Shown: positions 10,494 through 63,327 of the stretch, in pieces | Layout: every line of letters starts with the position of its first letter | Numbering within the stretch: the first letter of the stretch is position 1 | Source of the DNA: Paenibacillus baekrokdamisoli | GTDB taxonomy: Bacteria; Bacillota; Bacilli; Paenibacillales; Paenibacillaceae | Direction of reading: 5' to 3' | NCBI RefSeq assembly: GCF_003945345.1 | Contig: NZ_AP019308.1 | Location: forward strand, 1,426,001 to 1,490,000 | Length of the DNA: 64,000 nt | Program-made: the position numbers and the translations under genes | The notes under the pieces: model-generated | The model's input: only the letters and a program-made list of their open reading frames with translations | Database searches by the model: none | Told to the model about the DNA's origin: nothing

Positions 10494-11459
10494 ATGACTT
10501 TGCAAAAGATTCAAGGGTTAGCGGATCGAATTCGTACGAATGTCAGTAAGGTAATCGTAGGCAAGGAAGCAATCATGGATCATTTATTCATCGCTATACT
10601 TACATCGGGACATGTCTTATTAGAGGATGTACCTGGAACAGGCAAGACCCTCCTTGCGAAAGCGCTGGCAAAATCAGTGCACTGCTCCTTCAAACGAATT
10701 CAATTCACTCCGGATCTATTACCGTCCGATTTGAGCGGTATTCACTTCTATAATCAAAAGCTCTCTGAATTCGAATTCAGACCGGGACCGCTGTTTACCA
10801 ATATAGTCCTTGCAGATGAGATAAACCGTGCAACGCCAAGGACACAATCCAGTCTTCTGGAATGTATGGAGGAACGGCAGGTAAGCATTGACGGGACCAC
10901 ACATCAGTTAAGCCGTCCTTTTCTCGTTATAGCCACCCAAAATCCAGTCGAGCAGCAAGGGACTTTCCCACTGCCAGAAGCGCAGCTGGATCGGTTTCTT
11001 TTTAAAGTGAAAATGGGTTACCCGTCAACAGCAGAAGGTATTGGTATTATGAAAAGATTCATGTCGGATAATCCAATTGACCAGCTGCAGCCTGTGACTA
11101 CAGTTGAAGAAATCGAAGAGGCTCAACGTATCTATACGTCGGTTGCTGTATCCGATGATTTACTATCGTACATGCTGGCAATTGTTGAAGCAACGCGGGT
11201 CCATGCGGATGCTGCACTTGGAGCTAGCCCTCGGAGCAGTCAAGCTTTGCTGAGAGCTTGTCAGGCTTTTGCCGCCTTACATGGACGAGATTATGTCATG
11301 CCTGATGATGTGAAAGCGATGTCGATCCCCGTGCTTGCACACCGGATCACGGTAAGAAGCGCTCAGCGGCTGCGACCAAACGCGGCAGAGAGTATTGTGG
11401 AATCAATCCTGCAAATGATTGCGGTACCTTCGGATACACCGCTTTTGACTCGCTCTTAA
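10494..11459 (+). CDS. MoxR-family AAA+ ATPase
   Basis: 321 aa. Walker A is DVPGTGKT (near residue 47), Walker B is VLADEINRATPRTQ, and the sensor region is IATQNPVEQQGTFPLPEAQLDRF, a typical MoxR/AAA_3 pattern. MoxR ATPases act as chaperones for maturation or regulation of partner proteins, often together with DUF58 or VWA proteins. It is the first gene of a three-gene cluster (29 bases before the DUF58 gene, which then overlaps the membrane protein). The start has GAGGAG upstream. The client is unknown. Confidence 0.9.
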   Translation: MTLQKIQGLADRIRTNVSKVIVGKEAIMDHLFIAILTSGHVLLEDVPGTGKTLLAKALAKSVHCSFKRIQFTPDLLPSDLSGIHFYNQKLSEFEFRPGPLFTNIVLADEINRATPRTQSSLLECMEERQVSIDGTTHQLSRPFLVIATQNPVEQQGTFPLPEAQLDRFLFKVKMGYPSTAEGIGIMKRFMSDNPIDQLQPVTTVEEIEEAQRIYTSVAVSDDLLSYMLAIVEATRVHADAALGASPRSSQALLRACQAFAALHGRDYVMPDDVKAMSIPVLAHRITVRSAQRLRPNAAESIVESILQMIAVPSDTPLLTRS

Positions 11460-50576: not shown

Positions 50577-50669
50577 GTTCCCAGCCAATCAGATATAGGT
50601 GTCGAAGCTGAGGGATGGAACAAAGCATGAATAGCTTGCAGAGGATATGTAGGAAGGGAAATCGTGTTT

Positions 50670-51275
50670 ATGGACTTGAAAAAACTACGTTACTTTATCG
50701 CAGTAGCAGAAGAACTGCATTTCAATCGTGCTGCAAAAAAACTGAATATAACCCAACCTCCCTTGAGCCAACAAATCCAAAGTCTTGAGGAAGAACTCGG
50801 TGTGAAGCTTTTGGAGCGAACTAAGAGACAGGTCCGACTTACGTCAGCAGGAACGATATTTTTGGAGGAATCCAGAAACATTGTTTCTCAATTGGAACAA
50901 TCAATTAAGCTGACACAACATGCAAGTCAAGGGAAAGTTGGACTTTTGTCTATCGCATTTGTAGATTCGGCACTTGGTGGTATGATGGTTAACGTTTTAA
51001 AGGTATTTCGGGAGCGTTTTCCCGATGTGCAGCTTACTCTATTTGAAATGACATCTGCCCAACAACTGAAAGCTTTATATGATGGAAAAATACATGTCGG
51101 CTTCCTTCGTTTGGTAGATCCGTCAAAACATATCACCTCTCGACTCTACACTAACGAATCACTCGTTGCCGTATTACCCGAGAATCATCCATTAGCCAAG
51201 TCAGACAAGCAAACTTGTGTAAAGGCTATAATCTTAACCGGTCTTGCTTGGATCAAACTCAGAAACGCCATTTAA
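50670..51275 (+). pseudogene. LysR-family regulator, 3'-truncated
   Basis: Starts MDLKKLRYFIAVAEELHFNRA, a normal LysR winged helix (ITQPPLSQQIQSLEEELG), then the first part of the effector domain up to VAVLPENHPLAKSDKQTC at about 51220. The remaining ~100 residues of a typical ~295-aa LysR are missing; the frame runs 40 bases into the end of the convergent aldo/keto reductase gene and stops. DNA binding may be retained but effector response is unlikely. Confidence 0.8.
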
Positions 51276-52223
51276 AATAGTATTTATTTGTCTCATGACC
51301 TCAGTATCTAGAGTGACACCTGCAGCTTTGACGTTTTCCTTTACCTGCTCGGGCTTCGAGGCTCCAATAATAGCAGATGAGACTTGCGGGTTTTGCAAAA
51401 CCCACGCTACTGCAAGCTGTGGCAGTGTTAACCCGGACTCCTGTGCGATCGGCCGAATTCGCTCTACTGCCTGGAGGACTTCTTTACGCAACCACTGTCC
51501 GGCCAAACGTTCGAAAAATGGTGAACCAGCTATCGTAGAGGCGCGGGAGCCCTCCGGTATCGGCTTGTCTGGTGCATATTTACCGGAAAGAATACCCTGG
51601 GCCAGTGGAGACCAGACAACCTGTCCAATTCCTTCACGCTCACAAGCGGGAATAACTTCGGCTTCAATAACACGCCACAACATGGAATATTGGGGTTGAC
51701 TTGCCACGAAGGGAACTCTCAGTTCCCTTGCCAAAGCCGCCCCAAGCTTTATCTGTTCTGCTGTCCACTCGCTCACCCCCACATATAGTACTTTTCCCTG
51801 CCGAACCAAATCGGAAAATGCCAAAAATGTTTCTTCAAGCGATACAGTCGAATCAAATCGGTGTGCATAGTAGACATCGATATAATCCGTTTGCAATCTT
51901 CGAAGCGAAGCATGGCAGGCTTCCATGATATGTTTACGGGATAGCCCTTTATCGTTATGTCCGGTACCCGTTGGATGAAACACCTTCGTGCACAACTCAA
52001 TACTTTCACGACGTATCCCCTTTAAAGACTCCCCTAAAATAGATTCCGCTCTCGTCTCCGAGTAAACATCAGCTGTATCGAAAGTTGTGATCCCGGAGTC
52101 TAGTGCAGCATCTACACAAGCTTGCGCTGTGGTGTCATCCACTTGTGCACCGTGGGTTATCCAGTTTCCGAGTGCCATCTCACTTACCAACAAACCGCTT
52201 TTGCCAAGTTTCCGATATTGCAT
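51234..52223 (-). CDS. aldo/keto reductase, Kv-beta type
   Basis: 329 aa with a GGGAGGA site. Catalytic tetrad visible: Asp in TFDTADVYSE, Tyr in the same motif, Lys in LCTKVF, His in VYYAHRFD. NADPH-binding region SPLAQGILSGKY and GASKPEQV. Resembles the Kv-channel beta/YghZ-like branch. Reduces aldehydes or ketones; substrate unknown. Its 3' end overlaps the truncated LysR on the other strand. Confidence 0.92.
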   Translation of the reverse strand: MQYRKLGKSGLLVSEMALGNWITHGAQVDDTTAQACVDAALDSGITTFDTADVYSETRAESILGESLKGIRRESIELCTKVFHPTGTGHNDKGLSRKHIMEACHASLRRLQTDYIDVYYAHRFDSTVSLEETFLAFSDLVRQGKVLYVGVSEWTAEQIKLGAALARELRVPFVASQPQYSMLWRVIEAEVIPACEREGIGQVVWSPLAQGILSGKYAPDKPIPEGSRASTIAGSPFFERLAGQWLRKEVLQAVERIRPIAQESGLTLPQLAVAWVLQNPQVSSAIIGASKPEQVKENVKAAGVTLDTEVMRQINTILNGVSEFDPSKTG

Positions 52224-52435: not shown

Positions 52436-53899
52436 ATGATTTCTTTAACAGAAGCGTATGTAGATTCTTTAGCAATCAACAGCAGTGCGATGAAGAATGG
52501 TCGCGACCTAGTCAAGAAGAACAGCTTTCCCAAGCTGGGTAAAACCTCGGATGAGACACTCATATTCGGTGAATGCAAGGGAAGCGGCAAAGAACCTTAC
52601 CATTGCTCGGTAGATTTCGTGAAGCCGGAGGAGCCTGTATTTCGCTGCAGTTGCCCGAGTCGACAGTTTCCATGCAAACATATTCTGGGGTTAATGTACG
52701 CTTACGCGCTCGGCAATGCTTTTGAAATCACCGATATCCCTGATGATATTGTTGAAAAGAGGGAGAAGGCAGAGAAGCGCGAAGAGAAGCGGGAAGAGAA
52801 GAAAAAAGAACCTGTAGGCGAAGCTGCTGCGAAACGCAAAAAAACGAATCAGTCGACTTTGCTCAAAAAAATAGCGTCACAGCTGGAGGGCATCGAGCTA
52901 TTGGAGAAGCTTATTCAGCAGCTTACGAATTCGGGCCTCGGCAGTTTGGACAAGAAGACAGTGAAAACGTTCGAGGATCAGTCTAAGCAGCTTGGCAACT
53001 ATTATATACCGGGGCTGCAAACGGCCTTCCGTGGGCTGCTCTTTGAATTGAATGCTTCGAATGAAGCGAGCAGCTCCGAGCAGAAGGAATCGTTGTATAC
53101 CTCAATCGTGGAGAGCTTGGGCGTTCTGCATACCTTAGTCAAGAAGAGCCGCGAGTATTTAACCGCACGCATGGACAATCCCGAGAGCTCTATCGATAGT
53201 GAAACGACGCTAGAGGAGTGGATCGGTCACGCTTGGCAGCTTATTGAGCTGCGCGAGCATGGACGCGTGCATCCAAGTACGGAGCTGGTTCAGTTGTCGT
53301 TCCTATCCTATACAGATCAAGCGCGAAGTGAATTTGTAGATGAGGGCTACTGGTTGAGTTTGTTGAACGGACGGATCGACGTAACGCGAACCTATCGTCC
53401 TTTTCGCGCGGCCAAGCATATACGGGAGGAAGACTCCTGGTATCAAGTCGTGCAAACAGAAGAACTGTTTATGTACCCTGGGGAGCTGAATGCGAGGGTG
53501 CGTTGGGAAGCTTCAACACAGCGTGAAATGGCTGCCGATGACTTCGCAGCCATTCGTAATGCAGCTCACAAGTCATTTCCTGAAGCGGTTAAGCTGGTTA
53601 AGAACCAGATTAAAAATCCGTTGTCAGACAAATTCCCTGTCCTGCTGCTGTTCTATACCGAGATCGGACAAATTGACGATACCTTGGTTATCGTGGACGC
53701 TCAGGGCAAGCAGATTCAGTTGGCTAACATCGCTTTCCCAGATCATGACACGACATCATTGATACCTTACTTGAATAAACAATATGTGAAGGATCAGGCC
53801 ATCCTCGTCAAATTCGGCCACATGATGGATAAGAATCAGCTGCAAGCCCAGCCATTAAGTATAGTGTCGTCTAACGAAATCATCCGATTGTTATATTGA
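52436..53899 (+). CDS. SWIM zinc-finger protein (gene 1 of five-gene AAA+/VWA operon)
   Basis: 487 aa, GAGAGGA site before the ATG. The SWIM motif is CxC-x6-CxH at residues 71-82 (RCSCPSRQFPCKH), preceded by a beta-rich segment. A highly charged Lys/Glu linker (EKREKAEKREEKREEKKKE, ~105-125) separates it from a helical C-terminal half. SWIM domains bind DNA or protein. The gene opens a compact operon and is 24 bases from the next gene. No promoter could be assigned with confidence in the 212 bases upstream. Confidence 0.85.
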   Translation: MISLTEAYVDSLAINSSAMKNGRDLVKKNSFPKLGKTSDETLIFGECKGSGKEPYHCSVDFVKPEEPVFRCSCPSRQFPCKHILGLMYAYALGNAFEITDIPDDIVEKREKAEKREEKREEKKKEPVGEAAAKRKKTNQSTLLKKIASQLEGIELLEKLIQQLTNSGLGSLDKKTVKTFEDQSKQLGNYYIPGLQTAFRGLLFELNASNEASSSEQKESLYTSIVESLGVLHTLVKKSREYLTARMDNPESSIDSETTLEEWIGHAWQLIELREHGRVHPSTELVQLSFLSYTDQARSEFVDEGYWLSLLNGRIDVTRTYRPFRAAKHIREEDSWYQVVQTEELFMYPGELNARVRWEASTQREMAADDFAAIRNAAHKSFPEAVKLVKNQIKNPLSDKFPVLLLFYTEIGQIDDTLVIVDAQGKQIQLANIAFPDHDTTSLIPYLNKQYVKDQAILVKFGHMMDKNQLQAQPLSIVSSNEIIRLLY

Positions 53900-53923
53900 T
53901 TTAAAAGGTTAGGAGAAAATGTG

Positions 53924-55747
53924 ATGAGCATAGCTATTTTATTCGATCTACAGCTGGAGGTACGGCGCTTATTTATTGCAGGCAGCAGGATGGCCGAAGG
54001 CGATCTACGGTTAAAAAAAATATTGCCTCAATTACAAAAGCTTGGTGAATCCGCTGCGGTTTTTAAAAGAGTGGCCCAGGCGTTTATAGATGTAGTGGAA
54101 CCAACCGACAAAAGCGAGGGTGCTGCGGCAAAACTACTTGATCTAAGCACGCTTCTTAATTCGATTTTATATACGCAGGGAACGACCGAGGTACAAGGGG
54201 ACAGCGAGGAGGTAGTTGGGACTACTATTGCTTTATCCACGAAGATCCCTTACCGCAAGCTGAGTCCGGTTATCGAGGCATTGACGTCCAAGGGGCAAGG
54301 TCGTATGGAGCGGATCAACCAGGCTTATGAGGAACATTTGCTAAAGGATTTTCGTGTCCTTCCTGCAGTTGTTGCTGCGCTTGATGACAGTTACGCAGAG
54401 ATAGCTGATTTTGTAAGCCAAAAGGTTATTCCCGAATATGGGGAAGATGCACTTCCAGTGCTCCTTAAACAGTATGATCTTAATGGAGGCAGGGCGCATG
54501 GGCGTCGGCTTACACTTGTGCACGAGCTTTTGAGAGAATCCGGAATGGAGCTGTATCTTCAGGCTGCTCGGGAGGGCTCAGTAGAGGTTCGTATGTCCGC
54601 GATTGAGCTGCTTGGGAATTACCCGGCACAAGAAAGTCTTATCCTGGAGCAAGCCGATGATAAGAAGAAGGAAATTCGCAATGCGGCATACGTTGGCTTG
54701 GCCAAGCTTGGAACGGATAAAGCCGTAGACCGTCTATATCGGGCGCTAACGACAGGGAGAGACCGGGATAATGCCGTTGCGGCGATTCAACAATGCGAGG
54801 CTGCATCGCTTACCCATAAAGTAATTGATAATGCAGAGGTCGCGTTGGAGCAGATAGTCAGCGCCACGGAAAAAGAAGAACCGATCAAACAACTGCTTGC
54901 GGATCTGGAATGTTTGGATGAGAAGCAGCAGCCAGAGGTACTTGATTTTTTGAAAAAGCTGCTCTCAACGCCTGGTGTTATGATTCCCGCAGCAGAGAAT
55001 ATTCAAGAAAAAGCCGCTCAGCTTCTGCTGTGGATGAAATTGCCCGAAGCTTACGAATTTGCTGTAGGATTACAAGAAGTCTTTAATGGCAGATTCATTG
55101 GGTACAGCTTTCAAGCTGCATATACAACGCTGACTGCTGATGAAGTTTATGAACGCTTCTCTAAAGAGCTCAGGGAACCGAAGAAAAAGATGGTCAAAGA
55201 CCTGCTGATCGCAGCAATACATCAGGTGGCGCCCTCATCGTATCAGCAGTTGGCTTTAGTTAGAGATCCTGTTTCTTCTGACGAAGAATATATACACAAG
55301 CTGGACCCCAGATGGGTTCACTTATTCGCAGAGATTGATCAGGAAGAGCTGGTATGGAGCCTGGCTGAGAAGCCGGATAAAAAAATTACAGCTTATCTGG
55401 TGAGAAAGTTCCAGGTAAAACCTAAATTCAGAACACATCGATCGAATGCAATCCTACTGGTGTTATTCCGAAGCGGTTACAAAGAAGCTCCGGAGCTGTT
55501 AATGACTATGCTCGAGAAGGATACAGCGAACAACATTTATTATTTAGATGAGCTTCAGCGAACTCTGCTTTATCTGCTGCCGCGATCCTATGCGGACAGA
55601 CTGCGCGTATTCGCCGATGGCTTCAATTACTTAAGTGTCAAGCAGCAGACGCTTGAAATTGCCGAGCAATTAGCAGAGAAACCAGAAGAATTGGTCACAG
55701 AGAAGGGGACGGGATTATGGGGATGGATCAAAAACAAGATGTCTTAA
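53924..55747 (+). CDS. HEAT-like repeat scaffold protein (gene 2 of operon)
   Basis: 607 aa from ATG 53924 (AGGAG 8 bases upstream; GTG at 53921 possible). Almost wholly helical, with HEAT/PBS-like repeats visible at residues ~205-290: VEVRMSAIELLGNYP, KKEIRNAAYVGLAKLG, RDNAVAAIQQCEA. No catalytic motif. It occupies the position of DUF5691-type proteins in similar clusters of other bacteria; I could not verify that match. Probably a scaffold binding other operon products. Its 3' end overlaps the MoxR gene by 31 bases. Confidence 0.75.
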   Translation: MSIAILFDLQLEVRRLFIAGSRMAEGDLRLKKILPQLQKLGESAAVFKRVAQAFIDVVEPTDKSEGAAAKLLDLSTLLNSILYTQGTTEVQGDSEEVVGTTIALSTKIPYRKLSPVIEALTSKGQGRMERINQAYEEHLLKDFRVLPAVVAALDDSYAEIADFVSQKVIPEYGEDALPVLLKQYDLNGGRAHGRRLTLVHELLRESGMELYLQAAREGSVEVRMSAIELLGNYPAQESLILEQADDKKKEIRNAAYVGLAKLGTDKAVDRLYRALTTGRDRDNAVAAIQQCEAASLTHKVIDNAEVALEQIVSATEKEEPIKQLLADLECLDEKQQPEVLDFLKKLLSTPGVMIPAAENIQEKAAQLLLWMKLPEAYEFAVGLQEVFNGRFIGYSFQAAYTTLTADEVYERFSKELREPKKKMVKDLLIAAIHQVAPSSYQQLALVRDPVSSDEEYIHKLDPRWVHLFAEIDQEELVWSLAEKPDKKITAYLVRKFQVKPKFRTHRSNAILLVLFRSGYKEAPELLMTMLEKDTANNIYYLDELQRTLLYLLPRSYADRLRVFADGFNYLSVKQQTLEIAEQLAEKPEELVTEKGTGLWGWIKNKMS

Positions 55748-56814
55748 GGCTTCCAGCTGAACGGTTATATGAGCATGAGCTTGAGGCTTTAAAGAAAGCG
55801 GATAAGGATGCGCTGCCTTCTGGGTGGAAGCTTTCTCCCAAATCAGTGCTAACCTTCATAACGGGTGGAAAAGTCGGAGGTGTCGAGATTACACCCAAAT
55901 ATATCGGCAATCGGCGCTTGGTAGAAATGGCTATTGCTACCTTACTTACTGACAGGGCACTGATGCTGATTGGCGAGCCGGGAACGGCCAAATCTTGGTT
56001 GTCTGAGAACCTGACGGCTGCTATTCATGGTGATTCCTCCAAGGTTATTCAGGGTACGGCTGGTACAAGTGAGGAGCATATTCGCTATTCATGGAATTAC
56101 GCAATGCTGTTGGCTCAAGGCCCTTCCGATCAGGCACTGATCAAAAGTCCGATCTTTCGGGCGATGGAAAGCGGTGGTATCACCAGATTCGAGGAAATCT
56201 CGCGCTGCGCATCGGAGGTTCAGGATGCTCTAATCTCGATATTATCCGAGAAAACACTTTCGATTCCCGAGCTTGATAGAGAGCTATCAGCAGCCAGAGG
56301 CTTCTCCGTCATTGCAACGGCGAATACACGTGATCGCGGTGTGAATGAAATGTCAGCAGCGCTGAAAAGACGCTTCAATATCATTGTTCTTCCCGCACCT
56401 TCGGATATTGAAACTGAGGTCGGTATTGTCCGCAAGCGTGTTGGTGAAATCTCCGCCAATTATGAGTTGAACGCATCGCCACCTGATGACGAGGCGGTTC
56501 GCAAGGTCGTGACGATCTTCCGTGAGCTTCGCAACGGGATGACGATAGACAGCAAGGATAAGGTAAAACCGCCAAGCGGTGTTATTTCGACTGCTGAAGC
56601 GATCTCCCTCTTAACGGGCAGCATGGCGCTGGCAGCCAGCTTCGGGAACGGCACGATTACTGATGAGGATGTAGCCGCAGGACTTCAAGGCGCGATTGTG
56701 AAGGACGAAGAGAAGGACCGTCTGGTGTGGAAAGAATACTTAGAAAATGTGATGAAGAAGCGGGGTTCTTCATGGAGAAGCTTGTATCAAGCTTGCTCGG
56801 AGATGAACGGTTGA
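55717..56814 (+). CDS. MoxR-type AAA+ ATPase (gene 3 of operon)
   Basis: 365 aa. Walker A is GEPGTAKSW (residues ~86-93). The Walker B region reads GGITRFEEISRCASEVQDA (~152-170), with Glu-Glu where classical MoxR has Asp-Glu. Sensor 1 is VIATANTRDRGV, and ALKRRFN is the arginine-finger region. It differs clearly from the MoxR at 10494 and belongs with the AAA_5/RavA-like MoxR branch that partners VWA proteins. Expected to hydrolyse ATP in a hexameric ring and remodel or activate a client, with the VWA protein as adaptor. Overlaps both neighbours. Confidence 0.88.
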   Translation: MGMDQKQDVLRLPAERLYEHELEALKKADKDALPSGWKLSPKSVLTFITGGKVGGVEITPKYIGNRRLVEMAIATLLTDRALMLIGEPGTAKSWLSENLTAAIHGDSSKVIQGTAGTSEEHIRYSWNYAMLLAQGPSDQALIKSPIFRAMESGGITRFEEISRCASEVQDALISILSEKTLSIPELDRELSAARGFSVIATANTRDRGVNEMSAALKRRFNIIVLPAPSDIETEVGIVRKRVGEISANYELNASPPDDEAVRKVVTIFRELRNGMTIDSKDKVKPPSGVISTAEAISLLTGSMALAASFGNGTITDEDVAAGLQGAIVKDEEKDRLVWKEYLENVMKKRGSSWRSLYQACSEMNG

Positions 56815-59246
56815 GCAGCGAATCTAACATGAGCGCGGACCATACGATAGGCAGAACGCCTACGGGCAGTGAACAGAACGAAGACTTTCACGTTTTCGGG
56901 ATTCGGCACTTATCCCCTGCAGGTGCCCATCATCTGCTGTCTTTTCTCGATACGATCCAGCCAACGGCCATATTGGTTGAAGGACCGAGCGATGCAAGTG
57001 GAGTAATTGCTCAGTTAACTTCCCGCGGAGTGGTGCCTCCAATTGCGATTCTAGCCTATACGGATCAGCTTCCAATACGGACGCTGCTCTACCCTTTGGC
57101 CGAATATTCACCGGAATATCAGGCCTTCGTGTGGGCGAACCGTCATGGTGTGCATACCGAATTCATCGATCTGCCTTCAGAGACGGCGCTGGCTCTTCAT
57201 GAGCAGCGGAGGGCTTGGCGCACAAACTCCCTCCTTGCAGAGGATGAGCAGGAAGATCAGCAAGATGAACTTGAGGCAGGCCAATCAGCGGCAGCAGTTG
57301 AGAACGGGCTGCAAGCTTATCTGCGCAAGCAGAATGAACGTTATGAGCATATCGCTGAGTTAGCTGGTGAGCCCAGCTATGATGCTTACTGGGAACGCCA
57401 CTTTGAGCATAATCTACAGAAGGATGCCTATCGGCATGCGGTGTATGAGTTCTCAGCGCAAATGAGGGAGCTTTCTGAGCTGGATGAGCGTGAGCATGAC
57501 GCAGCAGAGACTGCCTACAATGAAATTCGAGAAGCCTATATGAGGCGTCGCATTCAGGAGGTATTACAGGCAGGTCATGCCCCGAATAAAGTTGTTGTGG
57601 TTACGGGCGCTCACCACGCCTCGGCATTAGACCTGCGGTTTCCCGTTATGACGGATAAGCAGCATGCGAGCTTGCCCAAGGTACCAACCAAATTAACGTT
57701 AATGCCTTACTCCTTTTATAAGCTATCCACCCATTCTGGCTATGGAGCGGGCAATCAAGCTCCCGCATACTTCACTTTATTCTGGGAGTGTTTGCAGAAG
57801 GGTGATTTAAGCCAGCTTCCATCGCTATACTTTTCCCATGTGGCTGCACGACTTCGTGAGCAGGGTAATTTCCGGTCCACTGCGGCTCTAATTGAAGCGG
57901 TCCGGTTAGCGGAGGCGTTGGCTTCTCTCCAGGGAGGCAGTCAACCGACGTGGCAAGATCTGCGCGATGCGGCAGTCGTATGTCTAGGTTATGGGGAGCT
58001 ATCCACGATTGCAGATGCGCTAGCGAGAACGGATGTGGGCACAGCGATAGGAAGCCTGCCGGAGGGTGTTAGCCAAACGCCGATACAGGACGATATGAAT
58101 CGGGAGTTGAAGCGGCTTAAGCTGGAGAAATACAAATCGACGGTAGCAGTGACGCTGCAGCTGGATCTGCGAGAAAACCGCCGAGTGCAATCGGAAGAGG
58201 CGGCTTTTATCGATCTCAAGCGGTCTGTGCTTCTGCATCGGCTGGAGCTGCTCGGGATTAATTTTGCCCGTAAGCAGCGGGTCAATCAGGAGGCCGCGTC
58301 ATGGGCTGAGCATTGGGTGCTGCAGTGGACGCCTGAAGCGGAGATCCAAGTCGTCGAGTCCACGTTAAAAGGCGAAACGATTGAATTGGCAGCGGCTTTT
58401 GTGCTCAATGAGCGATTGGAGTCTTGCGTAGATATTGCCGAATCCTCCAAACTGATTCGATTGGCTTGTGATTGCGGAATACCTAAGCTGATGGAGCAAG
58501 CGCGAAACACCCTGCAGGAGCTAGCTGTTGATGCAGGTAATTTCAATCAAATTGCAAGCAGCGCCTACGATCTATCCGTGTTGATTCAATATGGGTCCTT
58601 ACGTAAAATCGAGACGGATTCATTAATTCCGCTACTTCAGCAGCTGTTTCTTAGAGGCGCCCTTTTGCTGAGCGATGCTGCCAACTGTAATGATGATGCG
58701 TCGAAAGGCGTTGTAGACGCTATTCAAACGCTGCATGGAGTGGCACAGGAGCATTTTGAAATCGTTGATGATGGACTTTGGCTGCAAAAGCTGCACGAGC
58801 TGTCCTCGCGTGATGACCGGAATGCGAAGTGCTCGGGGTTTGCTTTTGCTATTTTACTGGAACGCAATGAGGTATCAGAAGAACAAAGCGCACAAGAAGT
58901 ATCGAGACGGTTGTCTCCTGGTATCCCTACTGACTTGGGAGCAGGCTGGTTTGAAGGCTTATCGATGCGCAACCGTTATGCGCTGTTATCCCGCCTTTCA
59001 TTATGGAGACAGCTCGATAACTACATGGAATCACTGGAGGAAGAGCAATTTCACCGTTCACTCGTATTTCTCCGCAGAGCATTTGGCTCCTTCGAACCTA
59101 GAGAAAAGGCGGCAATTGCTGAAATGATGGGTGATATCTGGGGAGTGGATACGGATCAGACGGGTGAAATGCTGCAGCGTCCGCTCAGTGAGGAAGAAAA
59201 GGGGAAACTCGATGAGCTTAACGATTTTGACTTCGGGGATTTGTAG
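56811..59246 (+). CDS. DUF5682-like large protein (gene 4 of operon)
   Basis: About 811 aa. The preferred start is TTG 56811, which overlaps the MoxR stop (TTGA) and has GGAG 8 bases before it; ATG 56772 and 56829 are alternatives. N-terminal FHVFGIRHLSPAGAHHL (His ~33) and ILVEGPSDASG (Glu ~57), then SYDAYWERHFEHN, VVVTGAHHASAL and LMPYSFYKLSTHSGYGAGN are the conserved blocks of this family. The His/Glu layout resembles the TraB/EreA/ChaN-like hydrolase fold, which is an inference. The C-terminal ~400 residues are helical. Probably the effector or catalytic subunit of the system. Confidence 0.8.
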   Translation: MSSESNMSADHTIGRTPTGSEQNEDFHVFGIRHLSPAGAHHLLSFLDTIQPTAILVEGPSDASGVIAQLTSRGVVPPIAILAYTDQLPIRTLLYPLAEYSPEYQAFVWANRHGVHTEFIDLPSETALALHEQRRAWRTNSLLAEDEQEDQQDELEAGQSAAAVENGLQAYLRKQNERYEHIAELAGEPSYDAYWERHFEHNLQKDAYRHAVYEFSAQMRELSELDEREHDAAETAYNEIREAYMRRRIQEVLQAGHAPNKVVVVTGAHHASALDLRFPVMTDKQHASLPKVPTKLTLMPYSFYKLSTHSGYGAGNQAPAYFTLFWECLQKGDLSQLPSLYFSHVAARLREQGNFRSTAALIEAVRLAEALASLQGGSQPTWQDLRDAAVVCLGYGELSTIADALARTDVGTAIGSLPEGVSQTPIQDDMNRELKRLKLEKYKSTVAVTLQLDLRENRRVQSEEAAFIDLKRSVLLHRLELLGINFARKQRVNQEAASWAEHWVLQWTPEAEIQVVESTLKGETIELAAAFVLNERLESCVDIAESSKLIRLACDCGIPKLMEQARNTLQELAVDAGNFNQIASSAYDLSVLIQYGSLRKIETDSLIPLLQQLFLRGALLLSDAANCNDDASKGVVDAIQTLHGVAQEHFEIVDDGLWLQKLHELSSRDDRNAKCSGFAFAILLERNEVSEEQSAQEVSRRLSPGIPTDLGAGWFEGLSMRNRYALLSRLSLWRQLDNYMESLEEEQFHRSLVFLRRAFGSFEPREKAAIAEMMGDIWGVDTDQTGEMLQRPLSEEEKGKLDELNDFDFGDL

Positions 59247-59249
59247 ACG

Positions 59250-60458
59250 ATGACATCTGTTAACAAAGAACAGGTAAAGCGCTGGAGATTGGTGCTTGGT
59301 GCAGCTTCTGAAGAAAAGCTACAGTCTTATGGCAGCAATGGCAGCATACTCGTTAATGATGCGGCATTGATGGATGAAGCGCTGGCCGCGATCTATGACA
59401 ATACTGGCAGCAGCACAGATCTGGATGCCGGCGGTTCAGGACGTTCAAGATCTGCCGGATTGGGGGCATCCTCTCCGAAGCTGGCCAAGTGGCTGGGGGA
59501 TATCCGTACTTTTTTCCCGGCAGATGTGGTATCAGTCATTCAGGCTGATGCGATTGAGCGGAAGGGACTAACACAGCTGTTGTTTGAGCCGGAGCTGCTC
59601 GCTCAGGTGAAGCCTGATATCCAAATGGTGGCGACGTTAATGGCGCTTAAGGGGAAAATTCCCGAGAAAACAAAAGAGACGGCAAGGCAACTAGTCAAAG
59701 CAGTGGTCGATGAAATTATCAAAAGGCTGTCGCAGAACATTCAACGCGCTGTCACAGGAGCCTTGAATCGGAGGCGGCATTCTCCGCTTCCTTCTTTCAC
59801 AGGACTAGATTGGAACCGAACGATTCAAAAAAACCTCAAGCACTACGATATGGAGCGTAAGCTGTTGATTCCCGAGAAGGTTTATTTCTTTGATCGTGCT
59901 CGCAAGAGCAAGGAATGGACTGTCATCCTAGATATTGATCAGAGTGGCTCGATGGCGAATTCAGTGATCTATGCATCGATAATTGGCTCTATATTCGCTA
60001 GCATGCCCGCGCTGGATACACGTGTCGTAGCCTTCGATACCGAGGTGGTCGATCTGAGTGAGCAGTGTGCTGAGGATCCTGTTGACATGCTGTTCGGCAT
60101 CCAGCTTGGAGGAGGAACCGATATTAATAAATCGGTTGCTTACTGTGAGCAGTTTGTTACGGAGCCAAAGAAGACGCTGTTCATTCTAGTAACCGATCTG
60201 TATGAAGGCGGGAATCGATCAGAACTGCTGCGAAGATTGGACGATCTGCAGCAGGCAGGAGTCAAAACGATCTGTTTGCTGGCCTTATCGGATCAAGGGG
60301 TACCAGACTATGATGAATCGGTAGCCAAAAGACTAGCCCAGTTCGGCATTCCCTGTTTCGGCTGCTCACCTGATCGACTCCCTGAATTGATTGAGGGCGC
60401 ACTAAAAGGAATGGATCTGCAAATGCTGGCAGGCCGCGTACAAACAGGCTCGGATTAA
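59250..60458 (+). CDS. VWA-domain protein (gene 5 of operon)
   Basis: 402 aa, starting 3 bases after the DUF5682-like stop. N-terminal ~200 residues are helical and charged. The von Willebrand A domain starts near 222 with MIDAS DIDQSGS (Asp230, Ser232, Ser234), then GGGTDINKS (Thr290) and FILVTDLYEGG for the third Asp. All metal-site residues are present. With the MoxR ATPase this makes an AAA+/VWA pair like RavA-ViaA, CbbQ-CbbO or the Mg-chelatase I-D subunits. No signal peptide. Last gene of the operon. Confidence 0.88.
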   Translation: MTSVNKEQVKRWRLVLGAASEEKLQSYGSNGSILVNDAALMDEALAAIYDNTGSSTDLDAGGSGRSRSAGLGASSPKLAKWLGDIRTFFPADVVSVIQADAIERKGLTQLLFEPELLAQVKPDIQMVATLMALKGKIPEKTKETARQLVKAVVDEIIKRLSQNIQRAVTGALNRRRHSPLPSFTGLDWNRTIQKNLKHYDMERKLLIPEKVYFFDRARKSKEWTVILDIDQSGSMANSVIYASIIGSIFASMPALDTRVVAFDTEVVDLSEQCAEDPVDMLFGIQLGGGTDINKSVAYCEQFVTEPKKTLFILVTDLYEGGNRSELLRRLDDLQQAGVKTICLLALSDQGVPDYDESVAKRLAQFGIPCFGCSPDRLPELIEGALKGMDLQMLAGRVQTGSD

Positions 60459-60562: not shown

Positions 60563-60648
60563 TTAAGCCATGATTTTCGGCCAAATAAAAGGTTGGCATT
60601 GCGTCTAAGCTGCCATGAGGTTATCATAAAATAAGTGAATCCAAAAAG

Positions 60649-60694
60649 AATCCCCTCGTTGTTGGGCTGGTGCTCAGCCGTTAACGAGGGGATT
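60649..60694 (+). terminator. hairpin, probable terminator
   Basis: AATCCCCTCGTT pairs with AACGAGGGGATT; the inner arm is GGCTG/CAGCC. Ends with ATTTAT rather than a full T-run. It probably ends the five-gene operon. Confidence 0.65.
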
Positions 60695-60711
60695 TATACG
60701 TTACATAGAAT

Positions 60712-60942: not shown

Positions 60943-63327
60943 GTGAGTAATCCAACCAACCAGGAGCAGCACATTGAACAGCAGCGCGTTGACAAGGTTA
61001 TAGAGCTCATTAATGGTCGTATTGAAGTTCTTGAGGAAGAAACTTTAGGTTCGAAATCTGAAATGGTCGATATACGCAAAAATTTCTGGGATGATGTGAC
61101 AGTCAATTTCGAGGATTCTGCCGAATCCGCGGAAACCTTTGCGAGCTTGAAGCAGCAGGCGGAGGTACTATCGGAACGCGAGCGTACTTACAAGCAAGCC
61201 GAGATACAGCTCCAAACGTTAAGGAAGCTTCAGCACTCTCCATATTTTGGTCGAATTGATTTTGTGGAAGAGGGTCAATCGCGTAAGGATCTCGTCTATC
61301 TGGGTATTGCTTCTCTTAGAGATAAGAATGACGAGGATTATTTGATCTATGACTGGCGTGCACCGATATCTAGCCTCTATTATGATTACCCGCCTGGTCC
61401 AGCCCAAATGGAGACGCCGATGGGGACCATTCATGGCGATTTATTAGTGAAACGTCAGTTTATGATTCGTGATGGAAAGATCATCAGCATGTTTGATACG
61501 GGTGTTACCATTGGGGATGAGCTGCTAAAGGAAGTACTCGGCAAACAATCTGATGCGCAGATGAAAAGTATCGTAGCCACCATACAACGGGAGCAGAATC
61601 GAATTATTCGTGATGAACGCAGCCGTCTGCTTATCGTACAAGGGGCAGCTGGAAGCGGCAAGACATCCGCTGCTCTTCAGCGTGTTGCTTATTTACTCTA
61701 TCGTTACCGGGGAATACTCACTGCTGATCAGATTGTTTTATTTTCGCCCAATCCGATGTTTAACAGTTATGTATCGACCGTTCTGCCTGAGCTGGGTGAA
61801 GAGAACATGCAGCAGACGACGTTTCAGGATTATCTGGTTTATCGGATTGGACGTTCTTTCAAGCTAGAAGATCCTTATGTGCAGCTGGAGTATGCCTTAA
61901 CTGCGGTGGAGGAGCCCGAATATGAATCAAGAATGGCTGGTATTCGTTATAAGGCCTCAGCTGATTACGTGATATTGATTGAACGATATTTGTCCCACTT
62001 AGGTCAGGAGGGATTGATATTCCGCGATGTTAATTTCCGTGGGGAAAAGGTTGCCGATGCAGAAGCAATTAGTGACTATTTTTACGGACTCCCTCGAACC
62101 CAGGCGATTGCCAACCGTCTTCGTCTTGTAGCGGAATGGCTGCTGGAACTGCTGAAGAAACGCGAGGCTGAGACTGCCTATGAAGCTTGGGTAGATGAAG
62201 AAATCGAGCTGCTGGATAAAGAAACGTATCTAAAGGCTTACCAAAGCTTAAGACGCAAAACGGGGTATTCGGGAAATTCCTTCGATGACTTTGACCGTGA
62301 ACGAGATTTGCTAGCCAACTATGTTGTGCGTGAGGCGTTCAAGCCGCTTCGTTCTCTGGTACGTAAGTTAGGCTTTATTAACATTCGTGCTTGCTTCCGC
62401 AAGCTGTTTCTAGATCCGGAGTTTGCACAGGGCTTAGCTGTCGAATGTACAGGTGGATCGGGGCTTCCAGTTGAATGGTCGTCAATAGCGAAGCAAACAC
62501 TTGCTCGATTAGATCAGCGTGTTATGGCGTACGAGGATGCGACGCCTTTCCTTTATTTGGTGGAGCGCATTCGCGGTTTCCAGGTAAATAATACCGTACG
62601 CCATCTCTTCATTGATGAGGCGCAGGACTATACGGCTTTCCAGTTTGCCTTTCTTATGCGGCTGTTTCCTCGGAGTAGAGTGACAGCGCTTGGTGATTTG
62701 AACCAGTCTATTCATGCTCATTCGGTTGGCGGAGCAAGTGGATTCGATGCGTTGAAGGAACGCTTCGATGACAAGCTGACAGAGACGATTATTCTGACAC
62801 GAAGTTATCGATCGACCAGACCCATTGTAGAATTTACGAGGTGCTTCATTCCGGGAGGAGGGCTGATTGAGCCATTCAATCGTGATGGAGCTAAGCCTAC
62901 CTTGACTGCTTTCACGGATCAGGAGGAACTTCAGCAGGAAGTTGGCAATCGAATTAAGAAGCTCCGCTCAGAAGGCTGTCGCACGGTTGCGGTTATTTGC
63001 AAGACAGCCGCCGAAAGTCTGAATACCTTTAACGCACTAGGAAGTGTCGGTGATTTACGGCTTATCGAGAAGGAAACAAACACCTTTGAGCCTGGAATCG
63101 TCGTTATACCTTCCTATCTCGCAAAAGGTGTGGAATTTGATGCGGTCATCGTTTATGATGCTTCGGCTGATTGCTACGGGCGTGAGAGTGAGCGGCGATT
63201 GTTCTATACGGTATGTACGCGGGCGATGCATGAGCTGCATTTGTACATGGTGGGAACAGCTTGGAGCCCCTTCATTACGGTGGAGGCGATGCAGTTGGCG
63301 CATGTGGAGAATAAACAAGAAGCCTAA
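60943..63327 (+). CDS. helD: HelD-like SF1 ATPase (RNA polymerase recycling factor), paralog 2
   Basis: 794 aa, close to the length of Bacillus subtilis HelD. GTG start with GAAAGGA-type site. N-terminal coiled-coil arm of ~100 residues (EQQRVDKVIELINGRIEVLEEE), FGRIDFVEEG, IYDWRAPISSLYYDYPPGPA, Walker A GAAGSGKTSAALQRVAYLLYRY (~233), IDEAQDYTAFQF, TRSYRSTRPIVEF, IPSYLAKGVEFDAVIVYDA and YTVCTRAMHEL. It uses ATP to release stalled RNA polymerase. It is the more conventional of the two HelD-like genes in the window. Confidence 0.9.
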   Translation: MSNPTNQEQHIEQQRVDKVIELINGRIEVLEEETLGSKSEMVDIRKNFWDDVTVNFEDSAESAETFASLKQQAEVLSERERTYKQAEIQLQTLRKLQHSPYFGRIDFVEEGQSRKDLVYLGIASLRDKNDEDYLIYDWRAPISSLYYDYPPGPAQMETPMGTIHGDLLVKRQFMIRDGKIISMFDTGVTIGDELLKEVLGKQSDAQMKSIVATIQREQNRIIRDERSRLLIVQGAAGSGKTSAALQRVAYLLYRYRGILTADQIVLFSPNPMFNSYVSTVLPELGEENMQQTTFQDYLVYRIGRSFKLEDPYVQLEYALTAVEEPEYESRMAGIRYKASADYVILIERYLSHLGQEGLIFRDVNFRGEKVADAEAISDYFYGLPRTQAIANRLRLVAEWLLELLKKREAETAYEAWVDEEIELLDKETYLKAYQSLRRKTGYSGNSFDDFDRERDLLANYVVREAFKPLRSLVRKLGFINIRACFRKLFLDPEFAQGLAVECTGGSGLPVEWSSIAKQTLARLDQRVMAYEDATPFLYLVERIRGFQVNNTVRHLFIDEAQDYTAFQFAFLMRLFPRSRVTALGDLNQSIHAHSVGGASGFDALKERFDDKLTETIILTRSYRSTRPIVEFTRCFIPGGGLIEPFNRDGAKPTLTAFTDQEELQQEVGNRIKKLRSEGCRTVAVICKTAAESLNTFNALGSVGDLRLIEKETNTFEPGIVVIPSYLAKGVEFDAVIVYDASADCYGRESERRLFYTVCTRAMHELHLYMVGTAWSPFITVEAMQLAHVENKQEA

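Follow-up and report, generated by a model that had tools for sequence, protein, structure and literature searches.

The locus described here lies in a 64,000-nt stretch of Paenibacillus baekrokdamisoli (NZ_AP019308.1, positions 1,426,001-1,490,000, forward strand; host genome 7.26 Mb in a single contig), hereafter called the window. Between window positions 52436 and 60458, five open reading frames without internal stops follow each other on the + strand as an operon in the order SWIM - HEAT - MoxR - DUF5682 - VWA. The SWIM stop is separated from the HEAT start, ATG 53924, by a 24-base gap, and the 3' end of the HEAT gene overlaps MoxR by 31 bases. The DUF5682 gene overlaps MoxR by 4 bases when started at TTG 56811, which is preceded by a Shine-Dalgarno-like ggagat, and a gap of 3 bases leads to the VWA gene. 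With these starts the layout matches the spacing of 24, -31, -4 and 3 bases given by the first-pass annotation. Other possible starts are GTG 53921 for HEAT and ATG 56772 for DUF5682; residues of the latter protein are numbered from 56772. The SWIM zinc motif, HEAT repeats, MoxR Walker A and VWA metal-ion-dependent adhesion site (MIDAS) that had been read by eye were recovered by Pfam matches and by conservation in alignments, and the protein called DUF5682-like proved to be a member of the family itself. NCBIfam gave nothing above its cut-offs for the five proteins. The features, all on the + strand, are:

52436..53899, +, SWIM zinc-finger protein, 487 aa (Pfam PF04434, E 9.7e-6)
52646..52681, +, CxCx6CxH zinc motif (C71, C73, C80, H82; alignment of 33 SWIM proteins)
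53924..55747, +, HEAT-repeat protein, 607 aa from ATG (HEAT_2 PF13646, E 2.3e-11)
55717..56814, +, MoxR AAA+ ATPase of the YehL clade, 365 aa (AAA_5 PF07728, E 2.1e-36)
55972..55995, +, Walker A GEPGTAKS, residues 86-93 (24-row MoxR alignment)
56185..56196, +, acidic pair within R157-E160, a segment which we take to be Walker B (24-row MoxR alignment)
56811..59246, +, DUF5682 protein, 811 aa from TTG 56811 or 824 aa from ATG 56772 (PF18934, E 1.2e-140)
56880..57806, +, predicted Tiki/Ere/ChaN-fold domain, residues 37-345 (N-domain model pLDDT 89, fold matches)
56907..56909, +, His46 of GIRHLSP, candidate catalytic base (136/142 rows, 6 gapped, none different)
56979..56981, +, Glu70 of LVEGP, candidate catalytic acid (136/142 rows, 6 gapped, none different)
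57528..57533, +, Arg253-Glu254, candidate active-site pair (141/142 rows, 1 gapped, none different)
57615..57617, +, His282 of GAHH, candidate second catalytic His (142/142 rows)
59250..60458, +, VWA protein of CoxE type, 402 aa (VWA_CoxE PF05762, E 1.1e-49)
59937..59951, +, MIDAS DxSxS, D230-S234 (21-row VWA alignment)
60648..60695, +, stable hairpin, possible terminator (MFE -31.5 kcal/mol, z -6.2, 0/200 shuffles as good)

The five genes form one conserved unit. Two sets of relatives were compared, namely the best 80 of at least 562 relatives from a contig scan, a selection that leans to close relatives, and 26 relatives with a full DUF5682 match. Some genomes are common to both sets, loci L003-L022 and L023-L042 are identical places, and some of them recur among L049-L128. 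All five genes were labelled in 71 of the 80 loci, which shows that the arrangement is not due to chance, and the labelled genes were on one strand in every locus. Eight of the nine loci with an incomplete label set sit on stretches shorter than 20 kb, the exception being L080, and VWA was labelled in 78 of the 80, in line with the MoxR/VWA pair (PF07728 and PF05762) named in the first-pass annotation. Among the 26 relatives, 21 had the complete SWIM-HEAT-MoxR-DUF5682-VWA set on a single strand, whereas five carried MoxR-DUF5682-VWA; the single-system view expected the genes to stay together in other genomes, and both counts uphold it. In L046, one of the five without HEAT, the genes directly downstream encode a DUF4132 protein and one of SWIM type, the latter with CxCx5CxH recognized by eye and without a Pfam match. 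Each open frame received one family label, so that fusions can hide a partner: the DUF5682 open frame L080:9956-13519, at 1188 aa, is long enough for a DUF5682-VWA fusion. An over-long open frame gives L087 an odd gene order, and the MoxR of L023, split over two open frames, was left as it is.

Full five-gene loci in the best 80 came from Paenibacillus, Cohnella, Saccharibacillus, Bacillus, Priestia, Lachnospiraceae, Oscillospiraceae and two Planctomycete assemblies, the closest named relatives among the matches listed being Paenibacillus. Presence was patchy: 27 of the 98 relatives scored above the family cut-off, as did 8 of the 398 genomes from the phylum, and both counts include the window's genome. 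No neighbouring family recurred in more than 20 of the 80 homologous loci. Pairwise distances of the five proteins correlated with r 0.865-0.962 across 72 loci (the 71 and the window), which agrees with joint inheritance, while much of the correlation could come from shared ancestry alone.

The MoxR protein places the operon in a named family. Walker A is invariant over GEPGTAK and nearly so at S93 in 24 MoxR rows, and R157, E159, E160 and N203 are invariant in the same rows. In a FastTree phylogeny of 17 MoxR proteins, all twelve DUF5682-linked ones, YehL of Escherichia coli included, formed one clade (support 0.997), while RavA and four MoxR-like paralogs from the window's genome fell outside; the tree represents only part of the other named MoxR subfamilies, with CoxD and NorQ absent. 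The motifs, the clade and the adjoining VWA gene assign the ATPase to the YehL subfamily. Seven MoxR subfamilies are named in the literature, YehL among them (PMC3893208; this and the other PMC sources are cited from excerpts). The match to bpMoxR, PF20030, scored 24.2, under the cut-off of 27. Within the clade, one group (layout I, support 0.972) held the window, Phycisphaerales, Lachnospiraceae, Rhizobium, Methylosinus, Deinococcus and Hymenobacter, and another (layout II, support 0.853) held E. coli, Iodobacter, Sinorhizobium, a Paenibacillaceae copy and Streptomyces. This split tracks the helical partner: layout I has HEAT or DUF5691, layout II has DUF4132.

In E. coli K-12, yehL-yehM-yehP-yehQ encode together a window-type MoxR, DUF5682 (E 2.4e-98), CoxE-type VWA and SWIM, and yehI, upstream, encodes DUF4132. 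Identities to the window proteins are 41-43% for MoxR, 25-28% for DUF5682 and 33% for the VWA (YehP). The SWIM gene comes last in E. coli but first in the window, and a DUF4132 protein accompanies the E. coli set, without a HEAT gene, where the window has HEAT. SWIM-DUF5691-AAA-DUF5682-VWA clusters in Rhizobium sp. K102, Methylosinus trichosporium OB3b and Deinococcus taeanensis follow the gene order of the window, with DUF5691 in the slot held by HEAT; no VWA gene is listed for the Methylosinus cluster, whose gene table is incomplete, and the Deinococcus cluster has a small extra gene. Both layouts admit exceptions, with no SWIM gene listed in Hymenobacter, no VWA or SWIM in Streptomyces, and DUF4132 placed between DUF5682 and VWA in Sinorhizobium. 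MoxR, DUF5682 and VWA make up a constant core, and the helical-repeat slot is exchangeable between HEAT, DUF5691 and DUF4132. The window operon is one layout of an orphan YehL AAA+ system that occurs in several bacterial phyla, and the proposal of an undescribed system was not upheld, since the core set recurs in yehLMPQ and YehL already names a MoxR subfamily. No functional study of this operon was found in the literature searched, whether under its yeh genes or under DUF5682, DUF5691 and DUF4132; that literature excludes subscription papers and preprints.

YehL is a named MoxR subfamily without a functional study in the searched literature, and the gene of its partner, yehM, is nearly universal in E. 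coli, with a match of 80% coverage or more in 5166 of the 5426 genomes (about 95%). In E. coli HNSQ2209 (NZ_CP137737.1) an IS5-family transposase is annotated inside the yehM match, and the gene seems interrupted. In E. coli ST131 a resistance transposon is reported in the metG/DUF4132/yeh region of one subbranch, and 184 isolates are counted with a disrupted DUF4132 region (excerpts of PMC9334617), so the region tolerates disruption.

C71-x-C73-x6-C80-x-H82 showed no variation across 33 aligned SWIM proteins, and the SWIM proteins of HEAT clusters and of the three DUF5691-type clusters were homologous (hhalign probability 99.8). HEAT was the fastest-changing component, with a mean identity of 49.7% over 192 pairs where MoxR averaged 89.6%; over the 72 loci the means ranged from 27.3% for HEAT, the lowest, to 73.5% for MoxR, the highest. 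No sequence relation was detected between HEAT and DUF5691 (hhalign probability 0.9, with only 3 DUF5691 sequences). Two or three full-length HEAT genes were present in 4 of the 72 compared loci. Such tandem genes stand before MoxR in L108, L113, L102, L071 and L032, the last belonging to the set of 26 relatives and lying outside the 72-locus comparison; L084, where HEAT and DUF5682 are each split over two short open frames, was not counted as a HEAT duplication. A fixed stoichiometry had been deduced from the tight coupling; it does not follow from gene spacing; compare the loci with extra HEAT genes. The 21 VWA proteins in the alignment measure about 380-430 aa and end shortly past the VWA domain, and no variable effector domain was fused to any of them. 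D230, S232, S234 and D316 of the MIDAS are invariant and T290 nearly so in these rows. A Phycisphaerales VWA (L079:12371-13591) has Ala-Glu-Asp at the MIDAS Thr, where most have Gly-Thr-Asp (or Asn), and judged by this substitution its metal site may be altered.

PF18934 covers residues 57-789 of the DUF5682 protein. The whole-protein AF2 model has a pLDDT of 86, and its C-terminal part matches alpha-solenoid structures. In the predicted structure the N-terminal domain has the alpha/beta core fold common to the Tiki/EreA/ChaN/TraB superfamily, as the first-pass annotation had supposed together with a conserved candidate active site. In an alignment of 142 rows, equal to 116 distinct sequences, H46, E70 and H282, which may belong to the two-His, two-Glu catalytic motif of the superfamily, are unvarying, and a second Glu could be E254, E115 or E212. 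The site matching E47 of EreC is G43 or Pro in DUF5682 proteins. Comparison with the PF05139 and PF01963 profiles gave no match, at probabilities below 6 (20 sequences per target family, from a single bacterial order). Judging from the models, the N-terminal domain is probably a Tiki/Ere/ChaN-fold domain and a putative hydrolase. This assignment for DUF5682 is new and testable, and with the unvarying residues it turns an orphan YehL-type operon into a specific prediction that can be tested in E. coli K-12.

Our preferred reading, at a probability of roughly 0.45, is that the operon encodes a single ATP-driven enzyme machine of YehL type, in which MoxR-VWA acts on a DUF5682 hydrolase. It combines the computed gene set, the conserved neighbourhood, the parallel divergence, the MoxR clade, the predicted fold and the unvarying residues with a proposed complex of the products. 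The VWA protein of known MoxR-VWA pairs is described as capturing a client peptide, and the AAA+ ring as driving a conformational change (PMC7159879). Here the MoxR ring would work with the CoxE-type VWA as adaptor, and the two would use ATP to open, load or activate the DUF5682 protein, which is the likeliest client or effector because it is the most constant partner of the pair. Its N-terminal domain would be the hydrolase, with His46, Glu70, Arg253-Glu254 and His282 as candidate residues, carried on the alpha-solenoid. SWIM and the helical-repeat protein of the second slot (HEAT, DUF5691 or DUF4132) may be recognition or scaffold parts that deliver the substrate, probably a protein or nucleoprotein. 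A more far-reaching form, which we consider rather doubtful, is an ATP-gated hydrolase of new architecture, where the MoxR-VWA motor powers or unlocks the Tiki-fold site and the exchangeable helical-repeat receptor slot sets the target. If true, this would give bacteria a machine that carries out regulated proteolysis or cleaves esters or peptides and has no kinship with Clp, Lon, FtsH and HslUV; about 95% of the E. coli genomes examined would hold a version of it.

The main rival is a maturation chaperone, where MoxR-VWA would insert metal or haem into DUF5682, or into a client served by DUF5682, by analogy with CoxD-CoxE and NorQ-NorD, and the Tiki-like pocket would hold the cofactor. The VWA is of CoxE type, the candidate pocket has unvarying His and Glu residues, and the excerpted sources describe NorQD as driving metal insertion (PMC13036017), the like-folded ChaN as binding haem (PMC7979712) and Tiki itself as metal-dependent (PMC6254334). 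However, the same sources describe EreC (PMC7979712) and another superfamily member (PMC6254334) as metal-independent, no metalloenzyme or respiratory family was prominent in the flank clusters or among the 92 nearest neighbours (first 25 of 95 families), and the SWIM and HEAT parts are left unaccounted for; we regard maturation as unlikely. Quite improbable is a MoxR-vWA ternary conflict system, anti-phage or self-limiting, in which infection would switch on DUF5682 as the effector. Ternary systems of this kind exist (PMC7159879, in excerpt), HEAT changes fast, the distribution is patchy, and the Iodobacter copy adjoins restriction genes. Among 72,556 plasmid-collection records, 31 carried DUF5682 (8 from Escherichia, and several the size of a chromosome), but just one of 50,697 phage-collection records did. 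The defence role in the first-pass annotation met further difficulties in the constancy of the core genes, in yehM being a core gene of E. coli, in PADLOC 2.0.0, where 0 families matched any of the five proteins at E 0.1, and in the 92 nearest neighbours, of which no PADLOC family matched more than two (no control set was scanned). The phage record is a 14.2-kb "Bacteriophage sp." entry from human faeces with a DUF5682 gene 46% identical (MT835988.1:10533-12785), possibly a misnamed bacterial fragment. Still less probable is a stress or DNA-damage module that would remove or remodel damaged nucleoprotein after genotoxic stress. Layout II has DUF4132, and one Deinococcus operon that includes a DUF4132 gene is reported to rise when the DdrO repressor is depleted, a hint that concerns DUF4132; the E. 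coli gene yehF, which lies upstream of yehI, encodes a WGR domain. Against this, LexA boxes at two or fewer mismatches preceded 11 of 69 layout-I operons, none of them perfect, which is no clear excess over the approximately 6.4 expected by shuffling, and the E. coli yeh stretch has no consensus LexA box.

The upstream flank of the operon holds a two-component system, a short gene of LysR type and, on the opposite strand, an aldo-keto reductase. The LysR-type regulator (window 50664-51275, 203 aa) has a substrate domain match limited to positions 2-95 of 209, and at its 3' end the gene runs into that aldo-keto reductase (51234-52223), so it looks truncated. The hairpin begins about 190 bases past the last stop of the operon and could terminate the unit ahead of the next gene; the T stretch after it is short, and it was not listed by the consensus terminator scan. 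Beyond it, directly downstream of the operon, is a UvrD-like helicase of 794 aa (window 60943-63327). The RtcB RNA ligase family matched 3 of the 92 scanned nearest neighbours, probably including L062:4377-5612 as read from its sequence. A second MoxR-type ATPase in the window (10494-11459; genome 1436611-1437003, AAA_3 E 1.3e-64) is outside the YehL clade.

Compared with known systems, the operon shares its MoxR AAA+ with a VWA partner with RavA-ViaA, CoxD-CoxE and NorQ-NorD, whose clients are respiratory or metal enzymes; RavA is 16.1% identical to the window MoxR and stands outside the YehL clade. To our knowledge no DUF5682, SWIM or HEAT gene belongs to these three operons. The MoxR-vWA ternary conflict systems of Kaur et al. 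(2020, PMC7159879) likewise combine MoxR, VWA and a third core protein, which in the excerpted description is VMAP, iSTAND, FtsH or a beta-propeller, while in the window it is DUF5682; none of these four appeared in the Pfam scan of the five window proteins, and the name YehL does not occur in the text of that paper as used here. Towards EreC, ChaN and TraB the likeness is that of the predicted N-domain fold and of the order His, Glu, Arg, His. E47 of EreC lacks a counterpart in DUF5682, and the DUF5682 protein differs from all three by its fusion to an alpha-solenoid and by its gene link to an AAA+ motor.
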